Of a DNA stretch of 64,000 nucleotides, positions 28,280 through 55,214 are shown one piece after another (the stretch's first letter is position 1; each line of letters starts with the position of its first letter). The translations under genes were made by a program, and so were the position numbers. Source of the stretch: Ceratodon purpureus (Eukaryota; Streptophyta; Bryopsida; Pseudoditrichales; Ditrichaceae); the NCBI GenBank assembly GCA_014871385.1, contig CM026427.1:9058344-9122343 (forward strand). Direction: 5' to 3'. A model generated the notes under the pieces. The model had not been told where the DNA came from, did not search any database, and saw only the letters and a list, made by a program, of their open reading frames with translations.

Positions 28280-28299
28280 ATCTCATTCAGGGTTGTTCA

Positions 28300-28350
28300 T
28301 GGGACATAAGGACCGGTCCGTCCGTCCGGTCCGCTCGTCCGTCCGTTAGG
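28300..28350. repeat. Subterminal GTCC/GGAC tetramer cluster, transposase end of copy A
   Basis: GGACCGGTCCGTCCGTCCGG and neighbouring GTCC repeats lie within 60 bp of the terminus. The RING end (40090-40175) has longer GTCC runs (about 40116-40142). Subterminal repeats are the usual transposase binding sites in hAT elements, but binding here is inference. Confidence 0.7.
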
Positions 28351-28496
28351 GGTCAGGGGAGGTCCGTTTGACCAGGACTTACGGTTGACCACCCAAATGG
28401 TGAAATGGGAGTTACCTTGGCCACCTAGGATGCCACGCGTCTGACATGTCACCAAATATTCCACATATACAGTTGACTCGGGGGATGACGTGGCTA

Positions 28497-28625
28497 AGAG
28501 GAAGGGCGCCAACGCCTTGAGAGAGGGGGGCGCGACAGCTGAGAGGGGGGGCGCGAGCGTCTTGGGAAACGCGGCGCGAGCGAGGGGGCGCGAGCGACTG
28601 GGATGGGCGCGGGCGCCTGCGATGG

Positions 28626-28663
<38 letters not shown>

Positions 28664-28752
28664 CGCGAGCGCCTGCGATGGCAGGGGGGGCGCGAGCAAG
28701 GGGTTTAGGATGGGGGCGCGAGCGCTTGCGATGGGGGGGCGCGAGCGAGGAA
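28497..28752. repeat. GCGCGAGC array A1 (transposase 3' side)
   Basis: Degenerate tandem array of G-runs plus GCGCGAGC, with the spacer GCCTGCGATGGC typical of this position. It contains an unbroken run of about 37 G at 28627-28663. It lies between the transposase 3' end and the left terminus. The equivalent array in copy B is 54600-54905. Confidence 0.85.
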
Positions 28753-29032
28753 CAAAAATCAAGCATTGAAGGAAATTAAGACATGACTGAAGTTTTCATA
28801 GTGACATAAATGAGAGAAGTTTCAATTCATGTCGAAACAAAATTACATTCAATAGCCTTAGCTAATGTTTTATGGACATTGACTAAGGGTTAACATATAA
28901 GTATCTACGTATAAAATTTAGATATATATATATATATATTATATTTTTTTGTGATTTTTTAAAATTATTTTGGAGACATATATATTATACTTTCTCTATA
29001 TAACTTCTATATGTAATATGCTAATAGATGTA

Positions 29033-32000
29033 TTACTTTTTTTTATTTTTTTTGGCGGTGCGCCGCTCTGGATTCCTTCGAGTACCGGGCATACCCAATG
29101 GTACTCTTACAACAATGTCTTCATCATCAGGTGCTTCTTCACGGCTATCTTCCGATGAGTAATATCCTTCTGAGGATTTCGACCCCTCGTCATCTCCATC
29201 TCCCCCCTGATTAGGCACATACTCCTCCACCGTGGAATGAATGTTGCGCAATTCGTGGTCAATTGTACCATCCACCACTGTGGTCACAATTCTTTTGACC
29301 TTCCGTCTTTTGGTCTTATCGGTGATTCCGTCCACATTCATTACGGGTAATCTCCGTTTACCCACAGCCACAGGTAAAGACGGGGTAGTTCCAACAGTAT
29401 ATCCTGAAAAAAAAGGGCAAACGTTTGTTGGACCTTTCCGTGACCGTATCACTCCACGACGCGTCGTAGAAGGTCCAGCTGGTAGACTTCGTCCAGAAGA
29501 AGTGAGTGGAATGCTTGTATTCGGTGTTGGAGTTAATGAACCATGCCCAGTAGAAGTGCTTGAACGAGGTGGGGGAGGTCGACCCAACCCTGCAAGTACT
29601 GCTCCGATTGAAGGTGTACTCTGAGGCAGGGGTGTTTGAAACAATCGGCCAATAGGAATTTCATCTTCTTGTCCATTTCTGACTGTCTCTGATTGTTCAT
29701 TTCTTGGAGGGCTTTCATCCAAACCTCCGGACCTGATTGTTTCCTCAACATTTACTGGCAGAGTGCCTGGGAGTTGTTCAACTTCTTCTCCTCCCTCAAC
29801 GTCTTCTGGAATTGGAATTTGCTCTCCCATGTTGTTACCCCCCTCCTTCATTGTCATTGTTCGAAACGCTACGAACGGGGTGAATGTCATCATTATCGCC
29901 ACCATCGTCGCTTTGATGCTGAGTCATTTCGACTTCAAATTCATCGTCAATATCATCGTCTGCCCGATCGTATGCGACCTCGCCTCTAGTTTGTATTTCA
30001 TTGACAACGTGGTGAGGCGAAGTAGCTGCCTCTTCATCAAATCCTGCCCAGTCAAAAACTCCATTCGGCTGGTTAACGGGTTCAGTGCGTGGCATGTCAC
30101 CATCAGCATTGTCCACGGGTAACTCCTGATACTCATCATCCATAGTAGCAGGAGTGTAATGAACTCCACTGCCATCACCATCGCCTTCATTATCTTCAAG
30201 TCCGTCGTGGAATCCTTCATCTCCACATACGTCTTCATCGTACATGGCTGGAACTTCTTCATCCGAGTCTTCGGAGAACGGTTGGTTCTCGTACCAAAGA
30301 ACAGGATCCGCTCCACGTCGTTCTCGAAGGAGCTTACTGTTCGTGTAAATGTACACCAAGTCCTCTGCCTTCTTCACGGCCAATCGGTTGCGAACCTTAT
30401 TGTGAACAAAGGAATACATGCTCCAATTTTGCTCACATGATGATGCCGAGCATGTTAACGAAAGGATGCGCTTTGCTATCAAGGGTAACGCATCGCCCCC
30501 AACCCGCTGCCACCATTGATGAGGTAGCATCTTAGTCTGTCGAATGTTTGGGGCCTCCAAAGGGCTGAATGGACCAGTGCGTTCCTCAAACTGTGTTAGC
30601 TCGAACATCACAGTATCATGGTCCAGTTTAAGGGACTCACTCAAATGAATTAGCACTTGCAGGAGTGCACGCTTTGCAGCACTGCTAGTCAATAGCTCGT
30701 GGCTCTCCGGGAAAATGTAGGGATTCAAAATGGCGCCTGCGTAATGGAGATCTGTCAACATCATCTTCCATCTCTTCGTAAAATGTTTCTCAAAGCGCCC
30801 TGCTATAGCGGGGTCTAGGAAAAAAGGGTCACCCCGTAGACGGAATACATGCTTCTTCAAATTATTCATGGCCAACCATGCCCTCCCCATTGCCGGTGTT
30901 TGTCCATCAAAGGTCTTCAAGGTCACAACAGCCGGCTTCATAACATGCACAAGATCCTCACAACGTAACCAAAATGTCTCATCGAGAATGGTACTCCGTA
31001 CTTGACCTGCTAAGGCGTGAGCACGATACCCGTTTGACCGATTGAATAAAGTACTCACATATTCGTCCCATTTCGGACTGGCTACCACCTGGATTAGTGC
31101 CTCCCTCAGTTCAAGCAATCGAACAATCATCAAGTACGAGCATCCAAATCTTGTCTCCGCTGGTAACAACAGAGACAACTTCGGGCTGAATTGGCGAAAC
31201 AAAGCCATGGTGACATGACGGCGACGTATAAAATTTGGTATGCGTTTTGCCAAGGCAATCAGCTCTTTGAAGGTTGCTTCCTTCCCCCAATCTTCTAGTA
31301 AGAGGTCCATGATGTGAGCTGCACAACCTTGCTTGTAAATGTGAGGATAAGCTTCAACCACCTGGTCCATGGCTCCCAACATGGCACTAGCATTGTCGGA
31401 GCAAATCTGTACCACATTCTGCGGTCCAACTTCTTTGATGTACTCTTTCAATTTCCCAGCTATGTATGCCTTTGATTTCTTGTACCCCGTTGTATCAATG
31501 GAACCTAGGAATATATCTCCTGCTGGACACACAAGCATGACATTCATCAACGGCCGATGAACAACGTTGTCCCATCCATCCGAGCAAATAGTTGCCCCGT
31601 ACAAGCTAATACACTGCTTGGTTTTTTCCTCGATTTTCATCTTGAGAAGCTGCTTTGTTGGCTGGATGTGCTTGGTTCGCATTGCGTTGTATGCTCGTGG
31701 ACGGTAGACAAAACCTGCTTTCGATGTTGCCTCCACAGCTGCGATGAAAGATTGATGTCTAACCACATTGAAAGGCACATTCGCTTCATAAAAAAAGGAC
31801 GCCCATTTCTCATCCAATTCATTGCGCATTCCAATCTGATAGGCCTCGGGAAAGCTTTGTTGCCGCATAGATCTTGGTGTACATGAATCGCCTCGACTTA
31901 CAGGCGGAGTTGACTGAGACGGTTCAACTTGAGAAATCCTCTCCTCTTGGACCTCCTCCGTTCTTTGAGGCACTTCCGTAGATTGCTCAGCAGGCATAGA

Positions 32001-32300
32001 CTGGCTAGAACATGGTGCCAAGTGTGCCTCGCCATCACCACCGTCAGTGCCGTATATCTCCGCATGTGTCATTCTTTTTGGTATTACATTACCACAATTG
32101 GCAAAGCGCTTAAATACGGCGGCAGGGGCCTTGGTACAATGACTCTTGCTTGAACCTTCACCCCATCCATAGTGCTTCATAGCTCTTTGTCGTTTATAAC
32201 GAAAAGTGAAATTGCACCACACACATTTAACATGGTCCTTATCAATGAACGTCCACCACGGAGCCCACTCGGCCGTCGACTGACGCTGTTGACCTGCCAT
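29033..32300 (-). pseudogene. hAT transposase with acidic C-terminal extension, copy A (frameshifted tail)
   Basis: Same protein as the intact copy at 51009-54293. From the ATG at 32300 the frame runs through the BED-like finger, the DUF659/RNase H-like core (SDGWDN, QICSDNASAM, GCAAHIMD) and the hATC region (SASSCEQNWSMYSF), and ends early at 29835. The tail (EQIPIPEDVEGG and the rest, to 29033) continues in another frame. Against copy B there is one extra G in a G-run at about 29838-29843. The core lies before the shift, so a truncated, possibly active enzyme of about 820 residues could still be made. A homopolymer count error in the assembly would also explain the break. Confidence 0.9.
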
Positions 32301-32497
32301 TCTCCGTGTCTCTGAAAAAGTACAATGATCTCCTGTCTGCAAGTGTTAGTATGACACATGTGAGAAAAAAATGGTATGTGTAGACATCAACCACATGCCA
32401 ATGTGATGCACATTGTCTCAAGCAAGGAGCCCACAAGGAGTTCCGGGACTAGAGGCCATGATTTCAAATGATATTAGGCTTGGCCTAAGTTGGTGGC

Positions 32498-32505
32498 ATT
32501 TATAC
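32498..32505 (-). promoter_or_regulatory. Probable TATA box of transposase, copy A
   Basis: Minus strand reads GAGTATAAATGCC directly after the GCGCGAGC array, about 200 bp upstream of the ATG. A CTAACACTTGCAG sequence just before the start may be the acceptor of a 5' UTR intron. Same layout in copy B at about 50804. Confidence 0.55.
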
Positions 32506-32507
32506 TC

Positions 32508-32815
32508 GTGAGGGGGGGGCGCGAGCTTCTCCAGGGGGGGGGGCGCGAGCGTCTCCAGGGGGGGGTGGCGTGAGCTTCTCGGGGGGGGGGGGGGGGGGGG
32601 CGCGAGTTTCTCCAGGGGGCGCGAGCTTCTCCAGGGGGGGGGGGGGGGCGCGAGCTTCTCCAGGGGGGGGGGGGGCGCGAGCTTCTCCAAGGGGGGGGCG
32701 CGAGCTTCTCCAGGGGGGGCGCGAGCTTCTCCAGGGGGGGGGGGGGGGGCGCGAGCTTCTCAGACGGGGGGGGGGGGGGGGGGGGGGGGGCGAGCTTCTG
32801 GAAGGGGGGGAGGCA
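32508..32815. repeat. GCGCGAGC array A2 (between kinase and transposase)
   Basis: About 13 units of GCGCGAGCTTCTCC plus G-runs of varying length. The TTCTCC spacer is specific to this boundary. It separates the kinase 3' end from the transposase promoter. Equivalent array in copy B: 50430-50800. Confidence 0.88.
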
Positions 32816-33028
32816 CCCTTGTACGAGGGGCAGTCCCGGTGAATGGACCATACAGTTTTTCCATTTTTTTTTAAAAACATTTTTTCGTTCCATTACAAAA
32901 CCAACAATAGCATTTCATGTTCCACCGAGGCACGTATACTCCAAAAAAATGATTTATTAAAATATTAGAAATGTGCAAACAAGGCCACATAGGCAATCAA
33001 AATGTTCCAAACGTAAATCACTATGGAA

Positions 33029-34608
33029 CTACAATGTGTATCTAAAACAACCATTGGGAGCTTGGAAGTTGTAAGGGGGGCTCATCAAATCATTCACAAC
33101 TTTTGCAAGTGAAAGCCTCTTTGTAGGATCTTCGTTAAGCAAGCCATCCAACTTTGATGAGAATACAATCTTTGAGATTGAATCTTTGAAGAGTTCTGGG
33201 CATTCTTCTTCTCTCCATATTGTCTTTGCCAAATGGCCTACCGAAAATGCATCAGATAGCGTCGTACATGGATGCATCCTCTTCATGCGCCCCAAATTGC
33301 GTTCCTCATCATCTTTGTCGCCATATAAAAAGAACAACTCCGGTGCAACTCCTACCCTCCTCTCCTTTATTCGTACAAGATCATCGGGGTCCCTCACACC
33401 ATAAGGCGAGGCCTTCTTCTCAATGACTCTGCTTGCCATACCCAATCGCACAAACCAATATATACTTTATCCTTGTCATGAGGTGGAAAGTGGAGTAGAA
33501 TGTTGGATGGCGTTAAGTCGTTGTGGAGGATTTCAGCCTTATGGACTATGTCCATAACGTAGATGAGACTCCACGCCAACATTCCCCGGTTCTTTTGATA
33601 GGCAACAATTCTTTGGCACTCTTCCATGGGCATTTCCCTCGACTTCAAAATTTCTTTGTAATCTGTTGCCTCGGTTGCCTTCTCATTTAATTTGAGGAAG
33701 TTGCGGAGGCAATCTCCATTCCACCACAGGGTATAAGCTTCCATGGTCTTAGAGTAAATGGCCCAAAATTTTATCACACGCGGATGCTCTACGAGGTTAA
33801 CCGTGGCCTCAATCGCCCGTTGCTCTCGCTGCTGCACTTCAGTTTTAGCCTTGGAAAGTTTTCCCGCAAATTCTATGTGAATTGGAATTTCCTTCATATT
33901 GGCTATTCGCACTTTTCGCACTTTGCCATACCCCCCCTCGGCATTGAAGCCAGATAATGGCACAACTTTGGCCGTAACCGGAATCCATATCAATGCACCA
34001 TACATGTGTGCTTCCAATGCTGAGTTCAACGCTTGCTCATTCCAAGGCATAATCTTTGTTTTCCCCTTAGAACATCTCTGACATGCCTCCTGAACCGCTG
34101 TCAGTTTCTGAATAAACACTTTGTCTTGGTTGCTCCATTCTTCGCCTTGTGGTTTCTTCACATGTGATTTTAACACATGAATGACATTTGTCGTAGCACT
34201 ACTCACTTGTTGTGTCAACCACTTAGGGCTGTGAAAATACTTCGTCATGCAATCCATGTAGAACTCTGATCCTTCTAATGCGCTCCAAAATTCCTTTTCC
34301 AAATCACGTTGGAGGTTGTAGATACCATTCTCTCCTTGATCAAGGTACATTGCCTTCAACATTCGTATGGTACGGGCCTTGTAGTACTCGACGGTCACCT
34401 TCCTGATGAAATGCGTATACTCCAATGGTGGATAACCGTCATCCTTCTCGTGCGCCGCAATACTCTTCTTCTTTTTACCCTTCGAGCTAGATGAAGGAGT
34501 AGAACCAGTAGAACCATGAGATCTTACACAACTCATAGGGTCCACCGCATCTGGAGCATCCAAGTCCTCATAGATAGGCCGCTTGCCGGAGCCTTGTCTA
34601 GAAGACAT
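33029..34608 (-). pseudogene. Cargo protein kinase, copy A (one-base frameshift)
   Basis: Same gene as the intact copy at 48626-50206, with roughly nine in ten residues identical over the parts compared. From ATG 34608 the frame covers the N-terminal region, Gly-rich loop, hinge and catalytic loop (LHNDLTPSNILL). It shifts exactly at the CDWG motif: copy A has GATTGGGTATGG where copy B has GATTGGGGTGTGG, one G fewer (about 33440-33443). The activation segment (GVAPELFFLYG) and C-lobe follow in a second frame from about 33451 to 33029. Without correction the product would lack the activation segment and C-lobe and be inactive. Because the change is in a short G-run, read error is a possible alternative. 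Confidence 0.88.
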
Positions 34609-34737
34609 CGCAAAGTAAATCCCTGAAAAAAAAAATCAACAACTTCCCCCCTCCCCCCCAATGAAGACTTCCCACATAAGCAGTTCCAAGCAAGGCGTGT
34701 TGTCACACGTCAGGACAAGGAGCCGCAGTGGGAAGGA

Positions 34738-34945
34738 GTGGGGGGGGGGGCGAGAGCTTCTCCCCACCTTATATAGTCCCCCCACGGACCCGCTCGCGCC
34801 CCCCCCCTGAACCCGCTCGCGCCCCCCTGTACCCGCTCGCGCCCCCCCCGACCCGCTCGCGCCCCTGAACCCGCTCGCGCCCGTACCCGTCCGCGCCCCC
34901 TTGACCCGTTCGCGCCCCTTCAGACACGCTCGCGCCCCCCCCCCC
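34738..34945. repeat. GCGCGAGC array A3 (kinase promoter side)
   Basis: Units read on the minus strand as GCGCGAGCGGGTWC plus G-runs, with TTCAG/TACAG spacers. The array ends at the kinase TATA box. Equivalent array in copy B: 48255-48460. Confidence 0.85.
34768..34776 (-). promoter_or_regulatory. Probable TATA box of kinase, copy A
   Basis: Minus strand ACTATATAAGGTGGGGAGAA sits directly downstream of the array and about 160 bp upstream of the kinase ATG. The identical string is present in copy B at 48461-48480. Confidence 0.65.
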
Positions 34946-35104
34946 ACCTTTTGTTTTACAATTTTTTTTTTTTATTTTCTTTTTTTCTTCTGGAAATAGT
35001 CAAATCTCTGCACTACTTTCTAAGAGAAAAAAATAAAGTAAATACTTAAAAAAACAAATTAAAAAATAGAAACTCTGGAGATTTTATACATGCACAACCT
35101 CTCA

Positions 35105-36060
35105 TTCAGCTCTCTTCCACTCCATGCTATTGATTTAATTTTATTCCGTTTAATTCCCAAACCAATTGCATCGAGCCCCTTCCTAATGATTCTTTATATT
35201 TTTAATTATATGTTAGAGCATTGTAGGATCCGTATGTACAATGCAATATATAGATTATTTTTTTAAACTCTAATCCAACTGCCTTCCACACCATGCTATT
35301 CGTTTAATTTTATTCCGTTTATCTCTTCCACTCCATGCTATTGATTTTATTTTATTTCCTTTATCTCCCAAACCAATTGCATCGAGCCCCTTCCTAATGA
35401 TTCTTTATATTTTTAATTATATGTTAGAGCATTGTAGGATCCGTATGTACAATGCAATATATAGATTATTTTTTTAAACTCTAATCCAACTGCCTTCCAC
35501 ACCATGCTATTCGTTTAATTTTATTCCGTTTAACTCTTCCACTCCATGCTATTGATTTAATTTTATTCCATTTATCTCCCAAACCAATTGCATCGAGCCC
35601 CTTCCTAATGATTCTTTATATTTTTAATTATATGTTAGAGCATTGTAGGATCCGTATGTACAATGCAATATATAGATTATTTTTTTTAACTTTAATCCAA
35701 CTGTCTTCCACACCATGCTATTTGTTTAATTTTATTCCGTTTATCTCTTCCACTCCATGCTATTGATTTTATTTTATTCCCTTTATCTCCCAAACCAATT
35801 GCATCGAGCCCCTTCCTAATGATTCTTTATATTTTTAATTATATGTTAGAGCATTGTAGGATCCGTATGTACAATGCAATATATAGATTATTTTTTTAAA
35901 CTCTAATCCAACTGTCTTCCACACCATGCTATTTGTTTAATTTTATTCCGTTTATCTCTTCCACTCCATGCTATTGATTTTATTTTATTCCCTTTATCTC
36001 TTCCACTCCATGATATTGATTTTATTTTATTCCCTTCGTCTCTTCCAATGTTTTATCTTT
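35105..36060. repeat. AT-rich ~211-bp tandem repeat, copy A
   Basis: Four to five tandem copies of a unit beginning CTCTTCCACTCCATGCTATT, at about 35112, 35322, 35533, 35743 and 35953 (spacing about 211). Each contains TTGCATCGAGCCCCTTCCTA and ATGTTAGAGCATTGTAGGAT. Satellite-like block between the kinase and RING promoters. The inverse block is in copy B. Confidence 0.85.
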
Positions 36061-36464
36061 TTTCAATTTCCACATCTCTTCTAATATTAATGCACTATTT
36101 TTTTTGTGGTCAACATTATATTATTCATCGTGCATTAGATCATTATTCCGTTATGGCATAACTTAGTTTCTAATCATCATGGGATTTATTCATCTTGATA
36201 ACTTCTTTCATCCTATGTTATTCATCCCTTTTTATCCCGAGTCTCTTATTATAGTCATGATTTATTTTCTATAATTTGATAACTCATCCCCAAATTATTC
36301 AAATCAGTATTCCTTATTTTAATATCTCTTTGTAATTTTTTATTTTTTATTTTAATTTTGAGAGAAATGGTGAAAAAATCCATTGCATTTCTTTGTATTA
36401 TTGTCTTCTAACCTTCTTCAATGCTACTCCTAAGTAAAATTAGAGATTTTTTCATGGTGCGGAC

Positions 36465-36545
36465 CCTCTCGCGCCCCACCCCTGGACCCGCTCACGCCCC
36501 CCCGATACCCGCTCGCGCACCTCCCCTTGAACCCGCTCGCGCCCC

Positions 36546-36603
<58 letters not shown>

Positions 36604-36679
36604 AACCTGCACTCGCCCCCCCTGAACCCGCGCGCGCCCCCCCTTGATCCCGCTCGCGCCCCCCCCCTAAGCCGCTCGC

Positions 36680-36731
<52 letters not shown>

Positions 36732-36775
36732 CCCCCGACTATATAAGTGAAGGGGGCGCCCTCCCCCCCCCCTAC
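36465..36775. repeat. GCGCGAGC array A4 (RING promoter side)
   Basis: Array of CCCGCTCGCGCCCC units, containing two very long C runs (about 56 at 36547-36602 and about 49 at 36682-36730). It ends at the RING gene TATA box. The matching array in copy B (46380-46680) has much shorter runs. Confidence 0.85.
36740..36747 (+). promoter_or_regulatory. Probable TATA box of RING gene, copy A
   Basis: CGACTATATAAGTGAAGGGG lies immediately after the long C run, about 340 bp upstream of the ATG at 37082. The same string occurs inverted in copy B at about 46400-46420. Confidence 0.65.
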
Positions 36776-36800
36776 TTTTTAAGCTCCACCTTGGCACTCA

Positions 36801-36962
36801 GGCCTTGAACTACCTCGCGGTGGCTTATTGCTGAGTACTTGGGTGGGGTCTACAGCATTTTCACAACGCCACGTACCTCGTTCAACCGTATTTTGTACGC
36901 TCATCCGGGAATTTGGGCCCTAAACTACCTCACGGTGGCTTATTGCTGAATACTTGGGTGGG
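36801..36962 (+). repeat. Duplicated 46-bp leader element of the RING gene, copy A
   Basis: Two near-identical copies (36801-36848 and 36917-36962) sharing ACTACCTC-CGGTGGCTTATT and GCTGA-TACTTGGGTGGG lie between TATA and ATG. Both are kept in copy B (46180-46232 and 46301-46350). Could be a transcript-level or protein-binding element. Confidence 0.75.
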
Positions 36963-37081
36963 CCACAAAGTATAGTTACAATACCATAATCAACCACGTA
37001 CGAAATTTGTAAAATCATTTGGGGGAAGTTTTGAGGAGTTGGTGTGTTTTTTAACACACAAAACTTTACCAGTAGACCACG

Positions 37082-39463: not shown

Positions 39464-39724
39464 GAATAGTTACAACTTAGTACTAAGTGACTAGTTTTCA
39501 TATACTACAGTTTTTGTAATGTTTTGGTTTGAATTGGTAATGAAATGCTTTTACTTTCATAAATGTATACAACATTGCAAAGTCCATGTATTTCGGCTCA
39601 CGAGTATCTCATTTTTTCTATGCTGAATTTACACTTTTGTCATTGCGCTTAGCCCCAATATATTATTCTGATGAAAATGTTAGGTTTTTTTGCATTGTCA
39701 AAAATTTACTATCTACAAAATGGG

Positions 39725-39960
39725 CCGCACGAAAAACCTGCTCGCGCCCCCCCTGAACCCGCTCGCGCCCATTCCCCCTGAACCCGCTCGCGTCCCCCCT
39801 TGAACCCGCTCGCGCCCCCCCCTGAACCCGCTCGCGCCCCCCCTTGAACCCGCTCGCGCCCCCCCCCCCCCCCCTGAACCCGCTCGCGCCCCCCCTGAAC
39901 CCGCTCGCGCCTCCCCTGAACCCGCTCGCGCCCCCCCCTGTACCCGCTCTCGACCCCCTA
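39725..39960. repeat. GCGCGAGC array A5 (RING 3' side)
   Basis: About ten units of CCTGAACCCGCTCGCGCCCC. Lies between the RING 3' end and the right terminus. Equivalent in copy B: 43215-43435. Confidence 0.88.
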
Positions 39961-40193
39961 CACATGCTGGCACCCCTTTTGCATATGTGGAATTCCCCGT
40001 CATCGTTCGTTGTCCATGTCATCAATATGTTTCCCCTATAGGTAAGTTGTAAAAAAAAAACTAACTTAGTAATTTTCCTCCTCCCCTCAATGTCCGATTA
40101 TGTCCGGGGACTGACCGGTCCGTCCGTCCGTCCGTCCGTCTATGTCCGGAAATTTTGCCCATGTCCGTCCGATAAGACAACCCTGATCTCATT

Positions 40194-40580
40194 GGCCAAA
40201 AAAATATTTTCCTCACTCTTCCAATAACGCAGTGCCTAATGCCAACTGTGTCGCCCCTAATGAACGTCAATAAGCAGAACATGTGTGGGTGTGGGATAAT
40301 CACCCATATAGTGAAGTTGCACTCACTTCTCGAGAGGCATTGATCTTTGTTCGCTTGCATATTCTTGAAATCAACAAAGCTTGTAGCAGCAGCAACGCAT
40401 CATGTTTCCAGGATTTTCAAGATGCTCCAGGTCCGGACGTCCGCAAGCGCTTCAGGACGTCCCGTGACTAAGAGGTCCTGGGGGGACTAAGTGGCAAGGG
40501 GAACTGAGGACCCCATTTCTGAATTGTTTTCTATGAGCTGCTAGTTGCACTAACATACGAGTGTATATGTTGCATGGTAA
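40194..40580. other. Spacer between copy A and the old hAT fragment
   Basis: No gene seen. Host sequence following the right target duplication. Confidence 0.45.
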
Positions 40581-42999: not shown

Positions 43000-43214
43000 C
43001 AGGGTTGTCTATTCGGACGGACATGGGCAAAATTTCTGGACATAGACGGACGGACGGACGGACGGACCGGTCGGTCCCCGGACATACTCGGACATTGAGG
43101 GGAGGAGGAAAATTACTAAGTTAGTTTTTTTTTTTACAACTTACCTATAGGGGAAACATATTGATGACATGGACAACGAACGATGACGGGGAATTCCACA
43201 TATGCAAAAGGGGT

Positions 43215-43435
43215 GCCAGCATGTGTAGGGGGCGAGAGCGGGTACAGGGGGGGCGCGAGCGGGTTCAGGGGGGCGCGAGCGGGTTCAGGGGGGGGGGGCG
43301 CGAGCGGGTTCAGGGAGGGGGCGCGAGCGGGTTCAGGGGGGGGCGCGAGCGGGTTCAGGGGGGGCACGAGCGGGTTCAGGGGGGGGCGCGAGCGGGTTCA
43401 GGGGGAATGGGCGCGAGCGGGTTCAGGGGGGTTCA
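43215..43435. repeat. GCGCGAGC array B1 (RING 3' side)
   Basis: About ten units of GGGGCGCGAGCGGGTTCAGG. Positional counterpart of array A5. Confidence 0.88.
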
Positions 43436-43689
43436 GGTAGATAGTAAATTTTTGACAATGCAAAAAAACCTAACATTTTCATCAGAATAATATATTGGGG
43501 CTAAGCGCAATGACAAAAGTGTAAATTCAGCATAGAAAAAATGAGATACTCGTGAGCCAAAATACATGGACTTTGTAAAGTTGTATACATTTATGAAAGT
43601 AAAAGCATTTCATTACCAATTCAAACCAAAACATTACAAAAATTGTAGTATATGAAAACTAGTCACTTAGTACTAAGTTGTAACTATTC

Positions 43690-46068: not shown

Positions 46069-46179
46069 CGTGGTGTACTGGTAAAGTTTTCTGTGTTAAA
46101 AAACACACCAACTCCTCAGAACTTCCCCCAATTGATTTTAAAATTTTCCTCCGTGGTTGATTATGGTATTGTAACTATA

Positions 46180-46350
46180 CTTTGTGGCCCACCCAAGTAT
46201 TCAGCAATAAGCCACCGTGAGGTAGTTTAGGGCCCAAATTCCCGGATGAGCGTACAAAATAAGGCTGAAAGCTGGTACGTGGCGTTGTCAAAATACTGTA
46301 GACCCCACCCAAGTACTCAGCAATAAGCCACCGTGAGGTAGTTCAAGGCC
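46180..46350 (-). repeat. Duplicated leader element of the RING gene, copy B
   Basis: Inverse of the copy A leader pair. AGCAATAAGCCACCGTGAGG is present at both 46200-46220 and 46320-46340, between the RING ATG and its TATA box. Confidence 0.7.
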
Positions 46351-46379
46351 TGAGTGCCAAGGTGGAGCTAAAAAAAGTG

Positions 46380-46682
46380 GGGGGGGGAGGGCGCCCCCTT
46401 CACTTATATAGTCGGGGGGGGGGGGGGCGCGAGCGGGGTCGGGGGGGCGCGAGCGGGGTCGGGGGGGCGCGAGCGGCTGAGGGGGGGCGCGAGCGGGATT
46501 AAGGGGGGGCGCGCGCGAGCGGGTCTCGGGGGGGGGGGGGCGCGAGCGAGGCAGGGGGCGCGAGCGGGTATGGGGGGGCGCGAGCGGGTATGGGGGGGGG
46601 GGCGCGAGCGGGATCACGGGAGGTGCGCAAGCGGGTATGGGGGGGCGCGAGCGGGATCAAGGGGGGGCGCGAGAGGGTCCCC
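46380..46682. repeat. GCGCGAGC array B2 (RING promoter side) with TATA box
   Basis: Units GGGGCGCGAGCGGG with GTC/TAT/ATC spacers. At its left edge the minus strand reads GACTATATAAGTGAAGGGGG, the probable RING-gene TATA box (about 46402-46412). Confidence 0.82.
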
Positions 46683-46984
46683 CCTTAAAACAAACTCTCA
46701 TTTCCTTAGGAGTACCATTGAAGAAGGTTGGAAGACAATAATAAAAACAAATGCAATGGATTTTTTCACCATTTCTCTCTAAGATAAAATTAAAAATTAA
46801 AAATTAAAATGGGATATGAAAATAAGGAATACTGATTTGAATAATTTGGGGATGAGAAATCAAATTATAGAAAAACAATCATGACTATAATAAGGGACTC
46901 GGGATAAAAAGGGATGAATAACATGGGAAGAAAGAAGTTATCAAGATGAATAAATGTCATGGTGGTTAGAAACTGAAATATCCC

Positions 46985-48110
46985 ATAACGGAGTACTGAT
47001 CTAATGCACCATGAATAATATAAAGTTGACTACAAGAAAATTAGTGTATTAATATCAGAATAAAATAAAAAGAATAGCATGGTGTGGAAGAGAGTTCGAT
47101 TAGAGTTTAAAAAAATAAAAAATATAATGCATTGAACATATGGATCCTACAATGCTCTAACATATAATTAAAAATATAAAGAATCATAAAGAAGGGCTCG
47201 ATGCAATTGGTTTGGCATATAAACGGAATAAAATTAAATCAATAGCATGGAGTGGAAGAGATAAAGGGATTAAAATAAAAAGAATAGCATGGTGTGGAAA
47301 TACGTAGGATTACAGTTTAATAACATCAAAAATATAATGCATTGAACATATGGATCCTACAATGCTCTAACATATAATTAAAAATATAAAGAATCATAAA
47401 GAAGGGCTCGATGCAATTGGTTTGACATATAAACGGAAAGAATAAAATTAAATCAATAGCATGGAGTGGAAGAGATAAAGGGATTAAAATAAAAAGAATA
47501 GCATGGTGTGGAAGAGAGTTCGATTAGAGTTTACAAAAATAAAAAATATAATGCATTGAACATATGGATTCTACAATACTCTAACATATAATTAAAAATA
47601 TAAAGAATCCTAAAGAAGGGCTCGATGCAATTGGTTTGGCATATAAACGGAATAAAATTAAATCAATAGCATGGAGTGGAAGAGATAAAAGGAATAAAAT
47701 AAAAAGAATAGCATGGTGTGGAAATACGTAGGATTACAGTTTAATAACATAAAAAATATAATGCATTGAACATATGGATCCTACAATGCTCTAACATATA
47801 ATTAAAAATATAAAGAATCATAAAGAAGGGCTCGATGCAATTGGTTTGGCATATAAACGGAATAAAATTAAATCAATAGCATGGAGTGGAAGAGATAAAA
47901 GGAATAAAATAAAAAGAATAGCATGGTGTGGAAATACGTAGGATTACAGTTTAATAACATAAAAAATATAATGCATTGTACATACGGATCCTACAATGCT
48001 CTAACATATTATAAAGAATCATAAATAAGGGATCGACGCAATTGGTTTGGGAGATAGACGTTTTACAATTAAATCAATAGCATGGAGTGGAAGAGAGGCT
48101 AGAGCTGCAT
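46985..48110. repeat. AT-rich ~210-bp tandem repeat, copy B
   Basis: Inverse of the copy A block. AATAGCATGGAGTGGAAGAG recurs at about 47241, 47456, 47666, 47876 and 48075, and ATGGATCCTACAATGCTCTA recurs between. Slightly more units and more internal variation than copy A. Confidence 0.85.
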
Positions 48111-48254
48111 GAGAGGTTGTGCAAGTATAAAATCCCAATACTTTGTATTTTTTAATTTGTTTTATTTTATTTTTTTCTCTTAGAAAGTAGTGTAGAGATT
48201 TCACTATTTCCAGAAGAGAAATAGAAAATAAAAAATGAGATCTAAAACTAATGG

Positions 48255-48462
48255 AAGCGGGGGCGCGAGCGTGTCTTAGGGGGCGCGAACGGGTTGGGGG
48301 GGGCGCGGACGGGTAGGGGCGCGAGCGGGTACAGGGGCGCGAGCGGGTGGGGGGGCGCGAGCGGGTACGGGAGGGGCGCGAACGGGTATAGGGGGGGCGC
48401 GAGCGGGTACAGGGGGGCGCGAGCGGGTTCAGGGGGGGGGGCGCGAGCGGGTCCGTGGGGAC
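48255..48462. repeat. GCGCGAGC array B3 (kinase promoter side)
   Basis: About ten units GGCGCGAGCGGGTACAGGGG and variants, ending at the kinase TATA box. Confidence 0.85.
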
Positions 48463-48470
48463 TATATAAG
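48463..48470 (+). promoter_or_regulatory. Probable TATA box of kinase, copy B
   Basis: ACTATATAAGGTGGGGAGAA begins one base after the last array unit and 160 bp upstream of the ATG at 48626. Position and sequence are identical to copy A. Confidence 0.65.
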
Positions 48471-48625
48471 GTGGGGAGAAGCTCTCGCCCCCCTCACTCC
48501 TTCCCACTGCGGCTCCTTGTCCTGACGTGTGAAAACACGCCTTGCTTGGAACTGCTTATGTGGGAAGTCTTCATTGGGGCGGGGGGGGAAGTTGTTGAAT
48601 TTTTTTTTCAGGGATTTACTTTGCA

Positions 48626-50206
48626 ATGTCTTCTAGACAAGGCTCCGGCAAGCGGCCTATGTATGTGGACTTGGATGCTCCAGATGCGGTGGACCCTATG
48701 AGTTGCGTAACACCTCATGGTTCTAGTGGTTCTACTCCTTCATCTAGCTCGAAGGGTAAAAAGAAGAAGAGTATACCAGCGCACGAGAAGGATGACGGTT
48801 ATCCACCATTGGAGTATACGCATTTCATCAGGAAGGTGGCCGTCGAGTACTACAAGGCCCGTACCATACGAATGTTGAAGGCAATGTACCTTGATCACGG
48901 AGAGAATGGTATCTACAACCTCCAACGTGATTTGGAAAGGGAATTTTGGAGCGCATTGGAAGGATCAGAGATGTACATGGATTGCAAGACGAAATATTTT
49001 CACAGCCCGAAGTGGTTGACACAACAAGTGAGTAGTGCTACGACAAATGTCATTCATGTGTTTGAATCACATGTCAAGAAACCACAAGGCGAAGATTGGA
49101 GCAACCAAGACAAAGTGTTTATTCAAAAACTGACAACGGTTCAGGAGGCATGTCAGAGATGTTCTAAGGGGAAAACAAAGATTATGCCTTGGAATGAGCA
49201 AGCATTGAACTCAGCATTGGAGGCACACATGTATGGTGCATTGATATGGATTCCGGTTACGGCCAAGGTTGTGCCATTATCTGGCTTCAATGCCGAGGGG
49301 GGGTATGGCAAAGTGCGAAAAGTGCGAATAGCCAATATGAAGAAAATTCCAATTCACATAGAATTTGCGGGAAAACTTTCCAAGGCTAAAACCGAAGTGA
49401 AGAAGCGAGAGGAACGGGCGATTGAGGCCACGGTTAACCCCGTAGAGCATCCGGGTGTGATAAAATTTTGGGCCATTCACGCTAAGACCATGGAAGCTTA
49501 TACCCTGTGGTGGAATGGAGATTGCCTTCGCAACTTCCTCAAGATAAATGAGAAGGCATCCGAGGCAATAGATTACAAAGAAATTTTGAAGTCGAGGGAT
49601 ATGCCCATGGAAGAGTGCCAAAGAATTGTTGCCTACCGAAAGAATCGGGGAATGTTGGCGTGGAGTCTCATCTACGTTATGGACATAGTCCATAAGGCTG
49701 AAATCCTCCACAACGACTTAACGCCATCCAACATTCTACTTCACTTTCCACCTCATGACAAGAATAAAGTATATATTGGTGTGTGCGATTGGGGTGTGGC
49801 AAGCAGAGTCATTGAGAACAAGGCCTCCCCTTATGGTGTGATGGACCCCGATGAACTTGTACAAGTAAAGAAGAGGAGGGTAGGAGTTGCACCGGAGTTG
49901 TTCTTTTTATATGGCAAAAAAGATGATGAGGAACGGAATTTGGAGCGCATGAAGAGGATGCATCCATGTACGACGCTATCTGATGCATTTTCGGTAGGCC
50001 ATTTGGCAAAGACAATATGGAGAGAAGAAGATTGCCCAGAACTCTTCAAGGATTCAATCTCAAAGATTGTATTCTCATCAAAGTTGGATGGCTTGCTTAA
50101 CGAAGATCCTACAAAGAGGCTTTCACTTGCAAAAGTTGTGAATGATTTGATGAGCCCCCCTTACAACTTCCAAGCTCCCAATGGTTGTTTTAGATACACA
50201 TTGTAG
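48626..50206 (+). CDS. Cargo protein kinase, copy B, intact
   Basis: 526 residues, single exon. The first ~200 residues have a Ser-rich start with a KGKKKK stretch (possible nuclear signal) and match no domain I know. The kinase domain follows: Gly-rich loop FNAEGGYGKVRKV (about 220-232), candidate ATP-binding Lys K250 (EFAGKLSK), hinge-like YTLWWNGDCL, catalytic loop HNDLTPSNILL (H362, D364, N369), CDWG (D388) in place of DFG, and APE at 422-424, ending in a C-lobe with DPTKRLSLA. All residues needed for phosphotransfer appear present. The usual Lys after HRDL is Thr and the Arg is Asn, so the subfamily is unclear. It lies upstream of the transposase on the same strand, behind its own array and TATA box. 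Targets are unknown; the transposase or silencing factors are guesses. Confidence 0.88.
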   Translation: MSSRQGSGKRPMYVDLDAPDAVDPMSCVTPHGSSGSTPSSSSKGKKKKSIPAHEKDDGYPPLEYTHFIRKVAVEYYKARTIRMLKAMYLDHGENGIYNLQRDLEREFWSALEGSEMYMDCKTKYFHSPKWLTQQVSSATTNVIHVFESHVKKPQGEDWSNQDKVFIQKLTTVQEACQRCSKGKTKIMPWNEQALNSALEAHMYGALIWIPVTAKVVPLSGFNAEGGYGKVRKVRIANMKKIPIHIEFAGKLSKAKTEVKKREERAIEATVNPVEHPGVIKFWAIHAKTMEAYTLWWNGDCLRNFLKINEKASEAIDYKEILKSRDMPMEECQRIVAYRKNRGMLAWSLIYVMDIVHKAEILHNDLTPSNILLHFPPHDKNKVYIGVCDWGVASRVIENKASPYGVMDPDELVQVKKRRVGVAPELFFLYGKKDDEERNLERMKRMHPCTTLSDAFSVGHLAKTIWREEDCPELFKDSISKIVFSSKLDGLLNEDPTKRLSLAKVVNDLMSPPYNFQAPNGCFRYTL

Positions 50207-50429
50207 TTCCATAGTGAATTACGTTTGGAACATTTTGATTGCCTATGTGGCCTTGTTTGCACATTTCGAATATTTTAATAAATCGTTTTTTCGGCGTATA
50301 CATGCCTTGGTGGAACATGAAATGGTATTGTTGGTTTTGTAATGGAATGAAAAATTGTTTTTTAAAAAAAAATGGAAAAACTGTATGGCCCATTCACCGG
50401 GACTGCCCCTCGTACAAGGGTGCCTCCCC

Positions 50430-50800
50430 CCTGAACCCGCTCGCGCCCCCCCCTCTGGAAGCTCGCGCCCCCCCCCTTCCAGAAGCTCGCGCCCCCCCTC
50501 TGAGAAGCTCGCGCCCCCTTTGCAGTAGGTTGCGCCCCCCCCCCTTGAAAAAGCTCGCGCCCCCCCTTGGAGAAGCTCGCGCCCCCCCCTTGGAGAAGCT
50601 CGCGCCCCCCCCCTCGGAGAAGCTCGCGCCCCCCCTGTTGGAGAAGCTCGCGCCCCCCTGGAGAAGCTCGCGCCCCCCCTGGAGAAGCTCGCGCCCCCCC
50701 CCCCCTGGAAAGAGAAGCTCGCGCCCCCCCACCTGGAGAAACTCGCGCCCCCTGCACACGCTCGCGCCCCCCCGCCTGGAGAAACTCGCGCCCCCCCTCA
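50430..50800. repeat. GCGCGAGC array B4 (between kinase and transposase)
   Basis: About 20 units of CTGGAGAAGCTCGCGCCCCC, the complement of the GCGCGAGCTTCTCC unit of array A2. Ends at the transposase TATA box. Confidence 0.88.
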
Positions 50801-50802
50801 CA

Positions 50803-50812
50803 AGTATAAATG
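50803..50812 (+). promoter_or_regulatory. Probable TATA box of transposase, copy B
   Basis: AAGTATAAATGCCACCAACT follows array B4 directly, about 200 bp upstream of the ATG at 51009. ACACTTGCAG at about 50963-50972 could be a 5' UTR intron acceptor. Confidence 0.55.
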
Positions 50813-51008
50813 CCACCAACTTAGCCCAAGCCCAATATCATTTGAAATCATGGCCTCTAGTCCCGGAACTCCTTGTGGGCTCCTTGCTTGAGACTATGTG
50901 CATCACATTGGCCTGTGGTTGATGTCTACACATACCATTTTTTTCTCACATGTGTCATACTAACACTTGCAGACAGGAGATCATTGTACTTTTTCAGAGA
51001 CACGGAGA

Positions 51009-54000
51009 ATGGCAGGTCAACAGCGCCAGTCGACGGCTGAGTGGGCTCCGTGGTGGACGTTCATTGATAAGGACCATGTGAAATGTGTGTGGTGCAATTT
51101 CACCTTTCGTTATAAACGACAAAGAGCTTTCAAGCACTATGGATGGGGTGAAGGTTCAAGCAAGAGTCATTGTACCAAGGCCCCTGCCGCCGTATTTAGG
51201 CGCTTTGCCAATTGTGGTAATGTAATACCAAAAAGAATGACACATGCGGAGATATACGGCACTGATGGTGGTGATGGCGAGGCACACTTGGCACACTTGG
51301 CACCATGTTCTAGCCAGTCTATGCCTGCTGAGCAATCTACGGAAGTGCCTCAGAGAACGGAGGAGGTCCAAGAGGAGAGGATTTCCCAAGTTCAACCGTC
51401 TCAGTCAACTCCGCCTATAAGCAGAGGCGATTCATGTACACCAAGATCTATGCGGCAACAAAGTTTTACCGAGGCCTATCAGATTGGGATGCGCAATGAA
51501 TTGGATGAGAAATGGGCGTCCTATTTTTATGAAGCGAATGTGCCTTTCAATGTGGTTAGGCATCCATCTTTTATCGCTGCTGTGGAGGCAACATCGAAAG
51601 CGGGTTTTGTGTACCGTCCACCAGCATACAACGCAATGCGAACCAAGCACATCCAGCCAACAAAGCAGCTTCTCAAGATGAAAATCGAGGAAAAAACGAA
51701 GCAGTGTATTAGCTTGTACGGGGCAACTATTTGCTCGGATGGATGGGACAACGTTGTTCATCGGCCGTTGATGAATGTCATGCTTGTGTGTCCAGCAGGA
51801 GATATATTCCTGGGTTCCATTGATACAACGGGGTACAAGAAATCAAAGGCATACATAGCTGGGAAATTGAAAGAGTACATCAAAGAAGTTGGACCGCAGA
51901 ATGTGGTACAGATTTGCTCCGACAATGCTAGTGCCATGTTGGGAGCCATGGACCAGGTGGTTGAAGCTTATCCTCACATTTACAAGCAAGGTTGTGCAGC
52001 TCACATCATGGACCTCTTACTAGAAGATTGGGGGAAGGAAGCAACCTTCAAAGAGCTGATTGCCTTGGCAAAACGCATACCAAATTTTATACGTCGCCGT
52101 CATGTCACCATGGCTTTGTTTCGCCAATTCAGCCCGAAGTTGTCTCTGTTGTTACCAGCGGAGACAAGATTTGGATGCTCGTACTTGATGATTGTTCGAT
52201 TGCTTGAACTGAGGGAGGCACTAATCCAGGTGGTAGCCAGTCCGAAATGGGACGAATATGTGGGTACTTTATTCAATCGGTCAAACGGGTATCGAGCTCA
52301 CACCTTAGCATGTCAAGTACGGAGTACCATTCTCGATGAGACATTTTGGTTACGTTGTGAGAATCTTGTGCATGTTATGAAGCCGGCTGTTGTGACCTTG
52401 AAGACATTTGATGGACAAACACCGGCAATGGGGAGGGCATGGTTGGCCATGAATAATTTGAAGAAGCATGTGTTCCGTCTACGGGGTGATCCTTTTTTCC
52501 TAGACCCCGCTATAGCAGATCGCTTTGAGAAACATTTTACGAAGAGATGGAAGATGATGTTGACAGATCTCCATTACGCAGGCGCCATTTTGAATCCCTA
52601 CATTTTCCCGGAGAGCCACGAGCTATTGACTAACAGTGCTGCGAAGCGTGCACTCCTGCAAGTGCTAATTCATTTGAGTGAGTGCCTTAAACTGGACCAC
52701 GATACTGTGTTGTTCGAGCTAACACAGTTTGAGGAACGCACCGGTCCATTCAGCCCTTTGGAGGCCCCAAACATTCGACAGACTAAGATGCTACCTCATC
52801 AATGGTGGCAGCGGGTTGGGGGCGATGCGTTACCGTTGATAGCAAAGCGCATCCTTTCGTTAACATGCTCGGCATCATCATGTGAGCAAAATTGGAGCAT
52901 GTATTCCTTTGTTCACAGTAAGGTTCGCAACCGATTGGCCGTGAAGAAGGCAGAGGACTTGGTGTACATTTACACGAACAGTAAGCTCCTTCGAGAACGA
53001 CGTGGAGCGGATCCTGTTCTTTGGTACGAGAACCAACCGTTCTCCGAAGACTCGGATGAAGAAGTGCCAGCCATGTACGATGAAGACGTATGTGATGATG
53101 ATGGAGATGAAGGATTCCACGACGGACTTGAAGTTAATGAAGGCCATGGTGATGACAGTGGAGTTCATTACACTCCTGCTACTATGGATGATGAGTATCC
53201 AGAGTTACCCGTGGACAATGGTGATGGTGACATGCCACGCACTGAACCCGTTAACCAGCCGGATGGAGTTTTTGACTGGGCAGGATTTGATGAAGAGGCA
53301 GCTACTTCGCCTCACCACGTTGTCAATGAAATACAAGCTAGACGCGAGGTCGCATACGATCGGGCAGACGATGATATTGACGATGAATTTGAAGTCGAAA
53401 TGACTCAGCATCAAAGCGACGATGGTGGCAATAATGATGACATTCACCCCGTTCGTAGCGTTTCGAACAATGACAATGAAGAAGGGGGTAACAACATGGG
53501 AGAGCAAATTCCAATTCCAGAAGACGTTGAGGGAGGAGAAGAAGTTGAACAACTCCAGGCCACTCTGCCAGTAAATATTGAGGAAACAATCAGGTCTGGA
53601 GGTTTGGATGAAAGCCCTCCAAGAAATGAACAATCCGAGACAGTCAGAAATGGAGAAGAAGATGAAATTCCTATTGGCCGATTGTTTCAAACACCCCTGC
53701 CCCAGAGTACACCTTCAATCGGAGCAGTACTTGCAGGGTTGGGTCGACCCCCTCCACCTCGTTCAAACACTTCTACTGGGCATGGTTCATTAACTCCAAC
53801 ACCGAATACAAGCATTCCACTCACTTCTTCTGGACAAAGTCTACCAGCTGGACCTTCTACGACGCGTCATGGAGTGATACGGTCACGGAAAGGTCCAACA
53901 AACGTCCGCCCTTTTTTTTCAGGATATACTGTTGGAACTACCCCGTCTGTACCTGTGGCTCTGGGTAAACGTAGATTACCCGTAATGAATGTGGACGGAA

Positions 54001-54293
54001 TCACCGATAAGACCAAAAGACGGAAGATCAAAAGAATTGTGACCACAGTGGTGGATGGTACAGTTGACCACGAAATTCGCAACATTCATTCCACGGTGGA
54101 GGAGTATGTGCCTAATCAGGGGGGAGATGGAGATGACGAGGGGTCGAAATCCTCAGAAGGATATTACTCATCAGAAGATAGCCGTGAAGAAGCACCTGAT
54201 GATGAAGACATTGTTGTAAGAGTACCATTGGGTATGCCCGGTACTCGAAGGAATCCAGAGCGGCGCACCGCCAAAAAAAACAAAAAAAAGTGA
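51009..54293 (+). CDS. hAT transposase with acidic C-terminal extension, copy B, intact
   Basis: 1094 residues from ATG 51009. A BED-like zinc finger lies at about 12-56 (W12, W15, C26-x2-C29, H43, H54/C55). DUF659/RNase H-like core: D244 in ICSDGWDN, D305 in QICSDNASAM, C329-x2-H332 in GCAAHIMD, and catalytic E626 in SASSCEQNWS within the hATC dimerisation region (HQWWQRVGGDALPLIAKRIL to VRNRLAVKKAEDLVYIY). These are the hallmarks of an active hAT transposase, which cuts CAGGG-type ends and makes 8-bp duplications, as seen here. Unusually, about 430 residues follow the hATC region: Asp/Glu-rich, low-complexity, ending in a basic tail (RRNPERRTAKKNKKK). The equivalent in copy A is frameshifted in this tail. 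Confidence 0.95.
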   Translation: MAGQQRQSTAEWAPWWTFIDKDHVKCVWCNFTFRYKRQRAFKHYGWGEGSSKSHCTKAPAAVFRRFANCGNVIPKRMTHAEIYGTDGGDGEAHLAHLAPCSSQSMPAEQSTEVPQRTEEVQEERISQVQPSQSTPPISRGDSCTPRSMRQQSFTEAYQIGMRNELDEKWASYFYEANVPFNVVRHPSFIAAVEATSKAGFVYRPPAYNAMRTKHIQPTKQLLKMKIEEKTKQCISLYGATICSDGWDNVVHRPLMNVMLVCPAGDIFLGSIDTTGYKKSKAYIAGKLKEYIKEVGPQNVVQICSDNASAMLGAMDQVVEAYPHIYKQGCAAHIMDLLLEDWGKEATFKELIALAKRIPNFIRRRHVTMALFRQFSPKLSLLLPAETRFGCSYLMIVRLLELREALIQVVASPKWDEYVGTLFNRSNGYRAHTLACQVRSTILDETFWLRCENLVHVMKPAVVTLKTFDGQTPAMGRAWLAMNNLKKHVFRLRGDPFFLDPAIADRFEKHFTKRWKMMLTDLHYAGAILNPYIFPESHELLTNSAAKRALLQVLIHLSECLKLDHDTVLFELTQFEERTGPFSPLEAPNIRQTKMLPHQWWQRVGGDALPLIAKRILSLTCSASSCEQNWSMYSFVHSKVRNRLAVKKAEDLVYIYTNSKLLRERRGADPVLWYENQPFSEDSDEEVPAMYDEDVCDDDGDEGFHDGLEVNEGHGDDSGVHYTPATMDDEYPELPVDNGDGDMPRTEPVNQPDGVFDWAGFDEEAATSPHHVVNEIQARREVAYDRADDDIDDEFEVEMTQHQSDDGGNNDDIHPVRSVSNNDNEEGGNNMGEQIPIPEDVEGGEEVEQLQATLPVNIEETIRSGGLDESPPRNEQSETVRNGEEDEIPIGRLFQTPLPQSTPSIGAVLAGLGRPPPPRSNTSTGHGSLTPTPNTSIPLTSSGQSLPAGPSTTRHGVIRSRKGPTNVRPFFSGYTVGTTPSVPVALGKRRLPVMNVDGITDKTKRRKIKRIVTTVVDGTVDHEIRNIHSTVEEYVPNQGGDGDDEGSKSSEGYYSSEDSREEAPDDEDIVVRVPLGMPGTRRNPERRTAKKNKKK

Positions 54294-54381
54294 TACATCT
54301 ATTAGCATATTACATATACAAGTTATATAGAGAAAGTATAATATATATGTCTCCAAAATAATTTTAAAAAAACACAAAAAA

Positions 54382-54427
<46 letters not shown>
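54382..54427. repeat. (AT)n microsatellite
   Basis: About 20 AT dinucleotides in copy B. The corresponding place in copy A (28921-28940) has only about 9, so the run length differs between copies. Confidence 0.85.
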
Positions 54428-54428
<1 letters not shown>

Positions 54429-54599
54429 AAATTTTATACGTAGATACTTATATGTTAACCTTAGTCAATGTCCATAAAACATTAGCTAAGGCTATTGAAT
54501 GTAATTTTGTTTCGACATGAATTGAAACTTCTCTCATTTATGTCACTATGAAAAATTCAGTAGTGTCTTAATTTCCTTCAGTGGTTGATTCTTGTTCCC

Positions 54600-54905
54600 A
54601 GCTCGCGCCCCCCCTTCGCAGGCGCTCGCGCCCCCCCTTCGCAGGCGCTCGCGCCCCCACCCCAAACCCCTTGCTCGCGCCCCCCTGCAATCGCAGGCGC
54701 TCGCGCCCCCCCCCCCCCCCCCCCCCGCCGTCGCAGGCGCTCGCGCCCCCCCACCATCAAAGGCGCTCGCGCCCCCCCCCCCCTCGCAGGCGCCCGCGCC
54801 CCTCCCAGTCGCTCGCGCCCCCTCGCTCGCGCCCCCCCTTCCCAAGACGCTCGCGCCCCCCCTCTCACGTGCTCGCGCCACCCTCACTCAAGGCGTTGGC
54901 GCCCT
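54600..54905. repeat. GCGCGAGC array B5 (transposase 3' side)
   Basis: Units of GCAGGCGCTCGCGCCCCCC, complement of the A1 unit with the GCCTGCGATGG spacer. Lies between the transposase 3' end and the right terminus. Confidence 0.86.
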
Positions 54906-55109
54906 TCCTCTTAGCCACGTCATCCCCCAAGTCAACAATATTTGGTGACATGTCAGACGCGTGGCATCCTAGGTGGCCAAGGTAACTCCCATTTCACCAT
55001 TTGGGTGGTCAACCGTAAGTCCTGGTCAAACGGACCTCCCCTGACCCCTAACGGACGGACGAGCGGACCGGACGGACGGACAGGTCCTTTTGTCCCATGA
55101 ACAACCCTG

Positions 55110-55214
55110 TCGACATCGACTCGATCTGCAGTGACAGATCTCGCCTATTGGCCCGTCGGTGACTCCCGCCCATCTGCCAACATGAGAATCGCCATTTACA
55201 AACCCTAATCGCAA
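55110..55214 (-). other. Proximal part of a reading frame apparently split by copy B
   Basis: Minus-strand open sequence beginning near an AAACCCTAAT (telo-box-like) motif at 55200-55209, ending at the right target duplication with ICHCRSSRC. Continues in frame at 42999 after removal of copy B. No ATG is in this frame, so an upstream exon or non-AUG start would be needed. Not recognised. Confidence 0.35.

Follow-up and report, generated by a model that had tools for sequence, protein, structure and literature searches.

Two hAT elements with a kinase gene and a RING gene

The stretch of the Ceratodon purpureus genome analysed here (64 kb of contig CM026427.1, referred to as "the window") contains two closely related transposable elements, E1 and E2, each combining a hAT transposase gene with a gene for a protein kinase and a gene for a RING protein. 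E1 extends from 28288 to 40185 (11,898 bp) and E2 from 43000 to 55109 (12,110 bp). They lie in opposite orientations: the transposase and kinase genes are on the − strand in E1 and on the + strand in E2. Both elements carry at both ends the 9-bp terminal inverted repeat CAGGGTTGT, a short repeat of the hAT type, and both are bordered by an 8-bp target site duplication: ATCTCATT (+ strand; 28280-28287 and 40186-40193) for E1 and TCGACATC (42992-42999 and 55110-55117) for E2. The window contains CAGGGTTGT four times, exactly at the four ends of E1 and E2, while in 100 shuffles the mean count was 0.57 and four was never reached. Aligned with each other, the two elements have an identity of 92-99% per block of 500 columns outside a repetitive spacer and of 81-89% inside it.

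Read with the transposase forward, both elements have the same layout: left end, RING gene (reverse), a tandem repeat of 210 bp, kinase gene (forward), transposase gene (forward), right end. In E2 the RING gene is at 43690-46068 (− strand), the spacer repeat (unit of ~210 bp) at 47058-48096, the kinase gene at 48626-50206 (+ strand, 526 amino acids, open) and the transposase gene at 51009-54293 (+ strand, 1094 amino acids from the ATG, open). The RING gene of E2 is interrupted by a stop at codon 622, behind the RING finger, which leaves two open reading frames (ORFs; 44206-46068 and 43690-44169). In E1 the RING gene (37082-39463, + strand, 793 amino acids) is open, the spacer repeat (unit of ~211 bp) is at 35111-36047, and the other two genes, both on the − strand, are damaged. 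The kinase gene (33029-34608, its low end placed by the alignment with E2) has a 1-bp deletion at codon 389 and remains open only over 33394-34608; the transposase gene (29033-32300, ATG at 32300) is split by a 1-bp insertion into two ORFs (29835-32342 and 29033-29905).

The transposase matches the Pfam families DUF659 (6e-33, 114 bits) and Dimer_Tnp_hAT (8.5e-6, 25.9 bits for a cut-off of 21.4), and its N-terminus is Cys/His-rich. The kinase matches PF00069 (2e-10), and the RING protein matches zf-RING_2 (1.4e-5) with 25.7 bits, slightly under the Pfam cut-off of 27.3. Polybasic stretches are present in all three proteins, which fits an action in the nucleus. Ends, duplications and Pfam matches thus confirm the original prediction, made from the letters of the window, of two hAT elements sharing three genes. 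That prediction had also taken the three long genes to be present in each copy: all three are indeed found in both E1 and E2, but neither copy has three open frames, which other genomic copies do have. By its ends, duplications and transposase we class the family as a hAT element, with a stable content of three genes.

Copy number and co-occurrence in the genome

The three proteins were searched in the genome of the moss (362 Mb, 151 contigs). For the kinase, the best 82 of 1421 candidates are all full-length, with a protein identity of 97-100%, and 80 are without stops. The best 42 of 1550 transposase candidates are likewise all full-length (39 without stops), and the best 57 of 1664 RING candidates are full-length or one residue short (38 without stops). 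Once the lists and E1 are merged, the kinase occupies at least 107 distinct places, on each of contigs C1-C13, and is clearly not confined to the two copies of the window. Contig C6, which from the VG label in KC19_VG232100 we take to be the male V sex chromosome, holds 24 of these 107 places and makes up 30% of the genome (110,524,308 bases).

The kinase accompanies the other two genes with great regularity. Of the 42 listed transposases, 37 are preceded on their own strand by a listed kinase at a distance of 697-893 bp, and the remaining five by a full-length but broken kinase (four with a frameshift, one with a stop), i.e. a kinase is found upstream of 42/42. For the RING gene, 18 of the 57 listed copies are paired with a listed kinase that diverges from them at a distance of 2.0-3.5 kb; in 12 copies sampled at random from the 38 lacking a listed kinase, the divergent kinase is at the expected place in all 12. 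Thirty of the 57 listed RING copies were therefore looked at and all 30 are positive, E1 being counted apart. Finally, ten whole elements including E2 were fetched by their kinase (the first ten, in list order, of 50 drawn at random from the list of 82, leaning to copies with the kinase most like that of E2): all ten contain transposase, kinase and RING genes, one with its RING end deleted. No copy outside the fixed layout was seen among those examined, and members lacking the kinase or the RING gene are not the rule among these best-scoring copies.

These ten elements and E1 make 11 distinct elements, of 11.9-12.9 kb. The frame is open in 10/11 for the kinase, 6/11 for the transposase (from the ATG) and 7/11 for the RING gene. 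The 8-bp duplication is perfect in six and matches at 7/8 positions in one; two have unlike flanks despite both ends, and in two the left end was not found. Three open frames, both ends and a perfect duplication are combined in 2/11. A search with a 47%-identical kinase as query did not show a second three-gene family in the moss genome: among the best 81 of 1367 candidates, 72 are, by eye, places already listed and 9 score alike.

On contig C11 (11135700-11150619) two RING copies point towards each other across 1.3 kb, flanked on either outer side by a kinase, and the scores of the two halves are identical; the arrangement resembles one element duplicated in inverted orientation, or a palindrome produced by the assembly.

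Selection on the three genes

To avoid the bias of ranking by kinase score, the ratio of non-synonymous to synonymous changes (dN/dS, or w) of the kinase was determined on 26 of the 42 copies of the transposase list: all five broken kinases and 21 of the 37 open ones (five shared with the elements fetched by kinase, 16 taken at random from the other 32). These 26 copies display 41 distinct non-synonymous and 34 synonymous changes, i.e. w=0.37 (P=3e-5 against the neutral share); two of the 41 were scored as stops, a true stop being present in copy L034 alone. Changes common to at least two copies give w=0.23 (P=2e-4) and singletons w=0.49 (P=0.013), and the kinase domain alone w=0.30. An early estimate (pooled ratio 0.13; w=0.17) was set aside as biased, being based on copies taken in the order of their kinase scores. 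In the ten elements picked by their kinase, w is 0.52 for the RING gene (P=0.004) and 0.53 for the transposase (P=0.004).

The long branch leading to E1 looks constrained for the transposase (w=0.34) and for the RING gene (w=0.50). Pairwise dN/dS values against E1 are 0.54-0.66 for the kinase, 0.28-0.34 for the transposase and 0.37-0.42 for the RING gene. The values from the 26 and the ten copies show that kinase and RING genes are under purifying selection within the family. The dN/dS below 1 that was anticipated for functional cargo is thus obtained for both genes, but not for the kinase on the E1 branch (see below).

The kinase and its relatives

The catalytic motifs of the kinase, already noticed in the window, are retained throughout the family: Lys250, Glu267, HND, CDWG and APE are found in 26/26 copies. 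Beyond the moss, a search of 5.8 billion proteins gave 105 relatives, with identities from 98% down to ~26%. In a first alignment of 35 of them with the query, Lys250, Glu267, His362 and Asn363 are the same in every sequence, and at least 90% have Asp364 and Asp388. A second alignment comprised 43 of the 105 and the query (44 sequences, identities down to about 25%), P0038 and P0073 being left out; there Lys250, Glu267, HND and Asp388 are invariant and P423 is present in at least 90%.

The AlphaFold model of the kinase (mean predicted local distance difference test score, pLDDT, of 83) has a helical N-terminal domain before the protein-kinase domain. The 50 nearest solved folds shown for this model are ordinary protein kinases with 13-20% identity, and the best solved structure by sequence reaches an E value of only 0.0016. 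Among the relatives and solved structures compared, no named relative was found, and we read the kinase as an orphan branch of the eukaryotic protein kinase family. A search of IMG/VR found no relatives with context, and the GTDB genomes gave one kinase stretch, with no transposase or RING gene adjoining.

A distant kinase branch (P0098, P0079 and P0080) has about 28% identity over 87-91% of the query, and occurs once under the name of a "Bacilli bacterium" metagenome-assembled genome, which probably means that a eukaryotic contig was binned with bacterial ones.

The RING protein, the transposase and their relatives

The RING protein is a coiled-coil RING-H2 protein and probably an E3 ubiquitin ligase. 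Its eight zinc ligands (C3H2C3), the retention of which had been noticed in the window, are kept in 11/11 copies and in most of the relatives that cover the region: in P0109 a Cys replaces a His, and P0116 is one ligand short. There are 25 relatives, whose near-whole-length matches range from 95 to 37% identity. No structural match was found for the model of the RING protein. The transposase has 38 relatives.

By eye the three ladders of relatives look parallel, e.g. P0007 (57%, 47 members) for the kinase, P0115 (50%, 47) for the RING protein and P0135 (55%, 43) for the transposase. This would be expected if one three-gene family lived in another species, for which the parallel is suggestive only.

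G-rich arrays and termini

Besides the genes, the elements have in common five arrays of a G-rich unit of ~20 bp with the core GGCGCGAGC. They are located inside each end, on the 5' side of the RING gene, on the 5' side of the kinase gene and between the kinase and transposase genes, at matching places in 9/9 distinct elements that have both ends. The left three arrays of E2 are forward, i.e. array 1 (left subterminal, 43252-43418), array 2 (5' side of the RING gene, 46426-46652) and array 3 (5' side of the kinase gene, 48262-48448), and the right two are reverse, i.e. array 4 (kinase-transposase gap, 50439-50768) and array 5 (right subterminal, 54601-54879). The core occurs 78 times in the window, always within E1 or E2. 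We infer that these arrays are regulatory or recombination units. In addition, clusters of GGACGG lie at most ~70 bp from both ends of the element. The terminal repeats are likely sites for the transposase. The left end folds into a hairpin no stronger than that of shuffled sequence.

Proposed role of the kinase and the RING protein

We interpret these results as a high-copy, recently active hAT family whose autonomous form carries transposase, kinase and RING genes, the last two being functional helpers of the element, with a probability of about 0.6. The part of this reading that the original prediction had put forward, namely that the kinase and RING genes are functional parts of the element, gains support from their co-occurrence and from purifying selection, and we hold it with high confidence. 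Selection across many dispersed copies makes it probable that the two proteins help the element. The family may be mobile now, since it is abundant and its best copies are so alike.

The transposase would act by ordinary hAT cut and paste through the 9-bp ends and the subterminal repeats, as its family, the ends and the duplications suggest. The kinase and the RING protein would be nuclear helpers acting in trans, which would mark a protein by phosphorylation and ubiquitination; the pairing of a kinase with a ubiquitin ligase suggests that this protein is marked for removal. If the two genes are functional, our first choice for the target, to which we give a little less than an even chance, would be a host silencing or repair factor, by analogy with the anti-silencing role of MURB and VANC. 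The second choice, a rather unlikely one, would be the transposase itself, its dose being controlled by a phospho-degron. A bolder version, which we consider less likely than not, would make the family a member of an ancient plant hAT lineage with its own circuit of phosphorylation and ubiquitination, formed by the orphan kinase and the RING ligase. This circuit would either disable a factor of host silencing or repair or time the transposase; its co-evolution with the transposase would go back to well before the Ceratodon family, and its regulation would include the five G-rich arrays bounding the genes.

Several observations weigh against the kinase and the RING protein being functional helpers. 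The kinase of the E1 branch (33029-34608) has w=0.89 (P=0.4), indistinguishable from neutral, which would fit a kinase dead for some time. In the 26 copies the N-terminal part of the kinase has w=0.52, which is not significant (P=0.055), and the shared changes of the RING gene in the ten copies (w=0.48, P=0.14) are too few for significance. All these P values assume that distinct changes are independent, with a transition weight of 2:1. One broken gene is common among the 11 elements read. In the first alignment of kinase relatives, P0038 has HNN for HND and P0073 is without the DWG stretch. The three genomic lists hold the best-scoring matches: the counts drawn from them are minimum values, and neither truncated copies nor deletion derivatives would show in them. 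Lastly, the model of the RING protein has a mean pLDDT of 56: the N-terminal ~130 residues are confident but the RING finger is poorly modelled, and, this finger being also just under the Pfam cut-off, the E3 activity is putative.

The kinase and the RING protein could also be functional with the transposase as their substrate, the kinase phosphorylating it and the RING protein ubiquitinating it, by which the element would limit its own activity or tie it to a stage of the cell cycle. The three genes are in the same element and the same copies and are conserved together, and a kinase with a RING protein is the classic phospho-degron pairing; a self-limiting function would nevertheless be weakly selected among copies acting in trans, and we consider this alternative unlikely. 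The purifying selection on both genes and the full-length relatives in other sources would also agree with a cargo beneficial to the host, i.e. with the two genes giving the moss a trait (stress or immune signalling for instance) and being maintained by selection on the host, a view put forward for part of the cargo of fungal Starships. But at least 107 dispersed kinase places and a fixed layout in all copies examined fit selection at the level of the element better, which makes a benefit for the moss improbable.

We see even less chance that the kinase and RING genes are mere passengers, captured from the host by a master copy that was amplified too recently for them to decay. The youth of the best-scoring copies (97-100% protein identity), the five broken kinases out of 42 beside full-length transposases and the neutral-looking E1 kinase branch all point that way. 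However, w is below 1 within the family and is lower for the older (shared) changes of the kinase, and relatives are found at identities between 98% and about 26%, their catalytic residues being nearly always kept; we rejected the passenger reading on dN/dS and on this depth of relatives. That independent genes are neighbours by chance, or that a duplicated segment of the contig was misread as elements, is ruled out practically beyond doubt by the exact ends, the 8-bp duplications differing by site and the copies on each of C1-C13, and nothing was found in its favour.

Comparison with known elements

The family resembles the hAT superfamily (Ac/Ds, Tam3, Tol2, hobo) in its 8-bp duplications, short inverted ends beginning CAGGG, dimerisation domain and subterminal repeats, features generally associated with this superfamily, to which the Pfam matches DUF659 and Dimer_Tnp_hAT are added. 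The autonomous hAT elements known to us encode a transposase alone in about 2.5-5 kb; the Ceratodon family, with 11.9-12.9 kb, differs from them by two further full-length genes. Accessory proteins linked to insertion or anti-silencing exist in the Mutator/VANDAL elements (MURB of MuDR, VANC of Hiun) and in Spm/En (TnpA). These elements are also autonomous with one or more conserved non-transposase genes, but they belong to other superfamilies and their accessory proteins are neither kinase nor RING. Kaonashi-type Mutator-like elements (MULEs) carry an ULP1 protease (small ubiquitin-like modifier, SUMO, protease domain): they are likewise plant elements with a gene of a ubiquitin-like pathway, but this is a SUMO protease, in a MULE and with no kinase. 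Pack-MULEs, Helitrons and Pack-TIR elements contain host gene fragments that differ from copy to copy; they share with the Ceratodon family the presence of non-transposase coding sequence, whereas every copy examined of the latter holds the same full genes, in the same layout and under selection. Starships are large eukaryotic elements with cargo genes, and in this they are alike, but they use a tyrosine recombinase and their cargo is not a kinase-RING pair. Teratorn is also a large eukaryotic element with cargo, but is a piggyBac-like transposon composite of 180 kb whose cargo is not a kinase-RING pair (PMC10175614). In the open-access literature, as far as its text was available, we found no earlier description of a hAT family with transposase, kinase and RING genes, in line with the initial remark that no such hAT family was known.

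In textbooks, hAT elements stand for the cut-and-paste transposon with a single gene. That a kinase and a probable ubiquitin ligase are under selection in every copy examined suggests that DNA transposons are able, like viruses, to use post-translational marks to control host signalling or to attack it. Because the moss is amenable to laboratory culture and crosses, the target of, and the need for, each gene are directly testable.

Other features of the window

Between E1 and E2, at 40974-41645, lies a piece of a third, different hAT transposase, which aligns with the E2 transposase (residues 146-287) at 36.6% identity. Outside the elements, two ORFs for leucine-rich repeat proteins (22515-23444 and 26400-27320) are on the same strand and look by eye like parts of one receptor-like gene.

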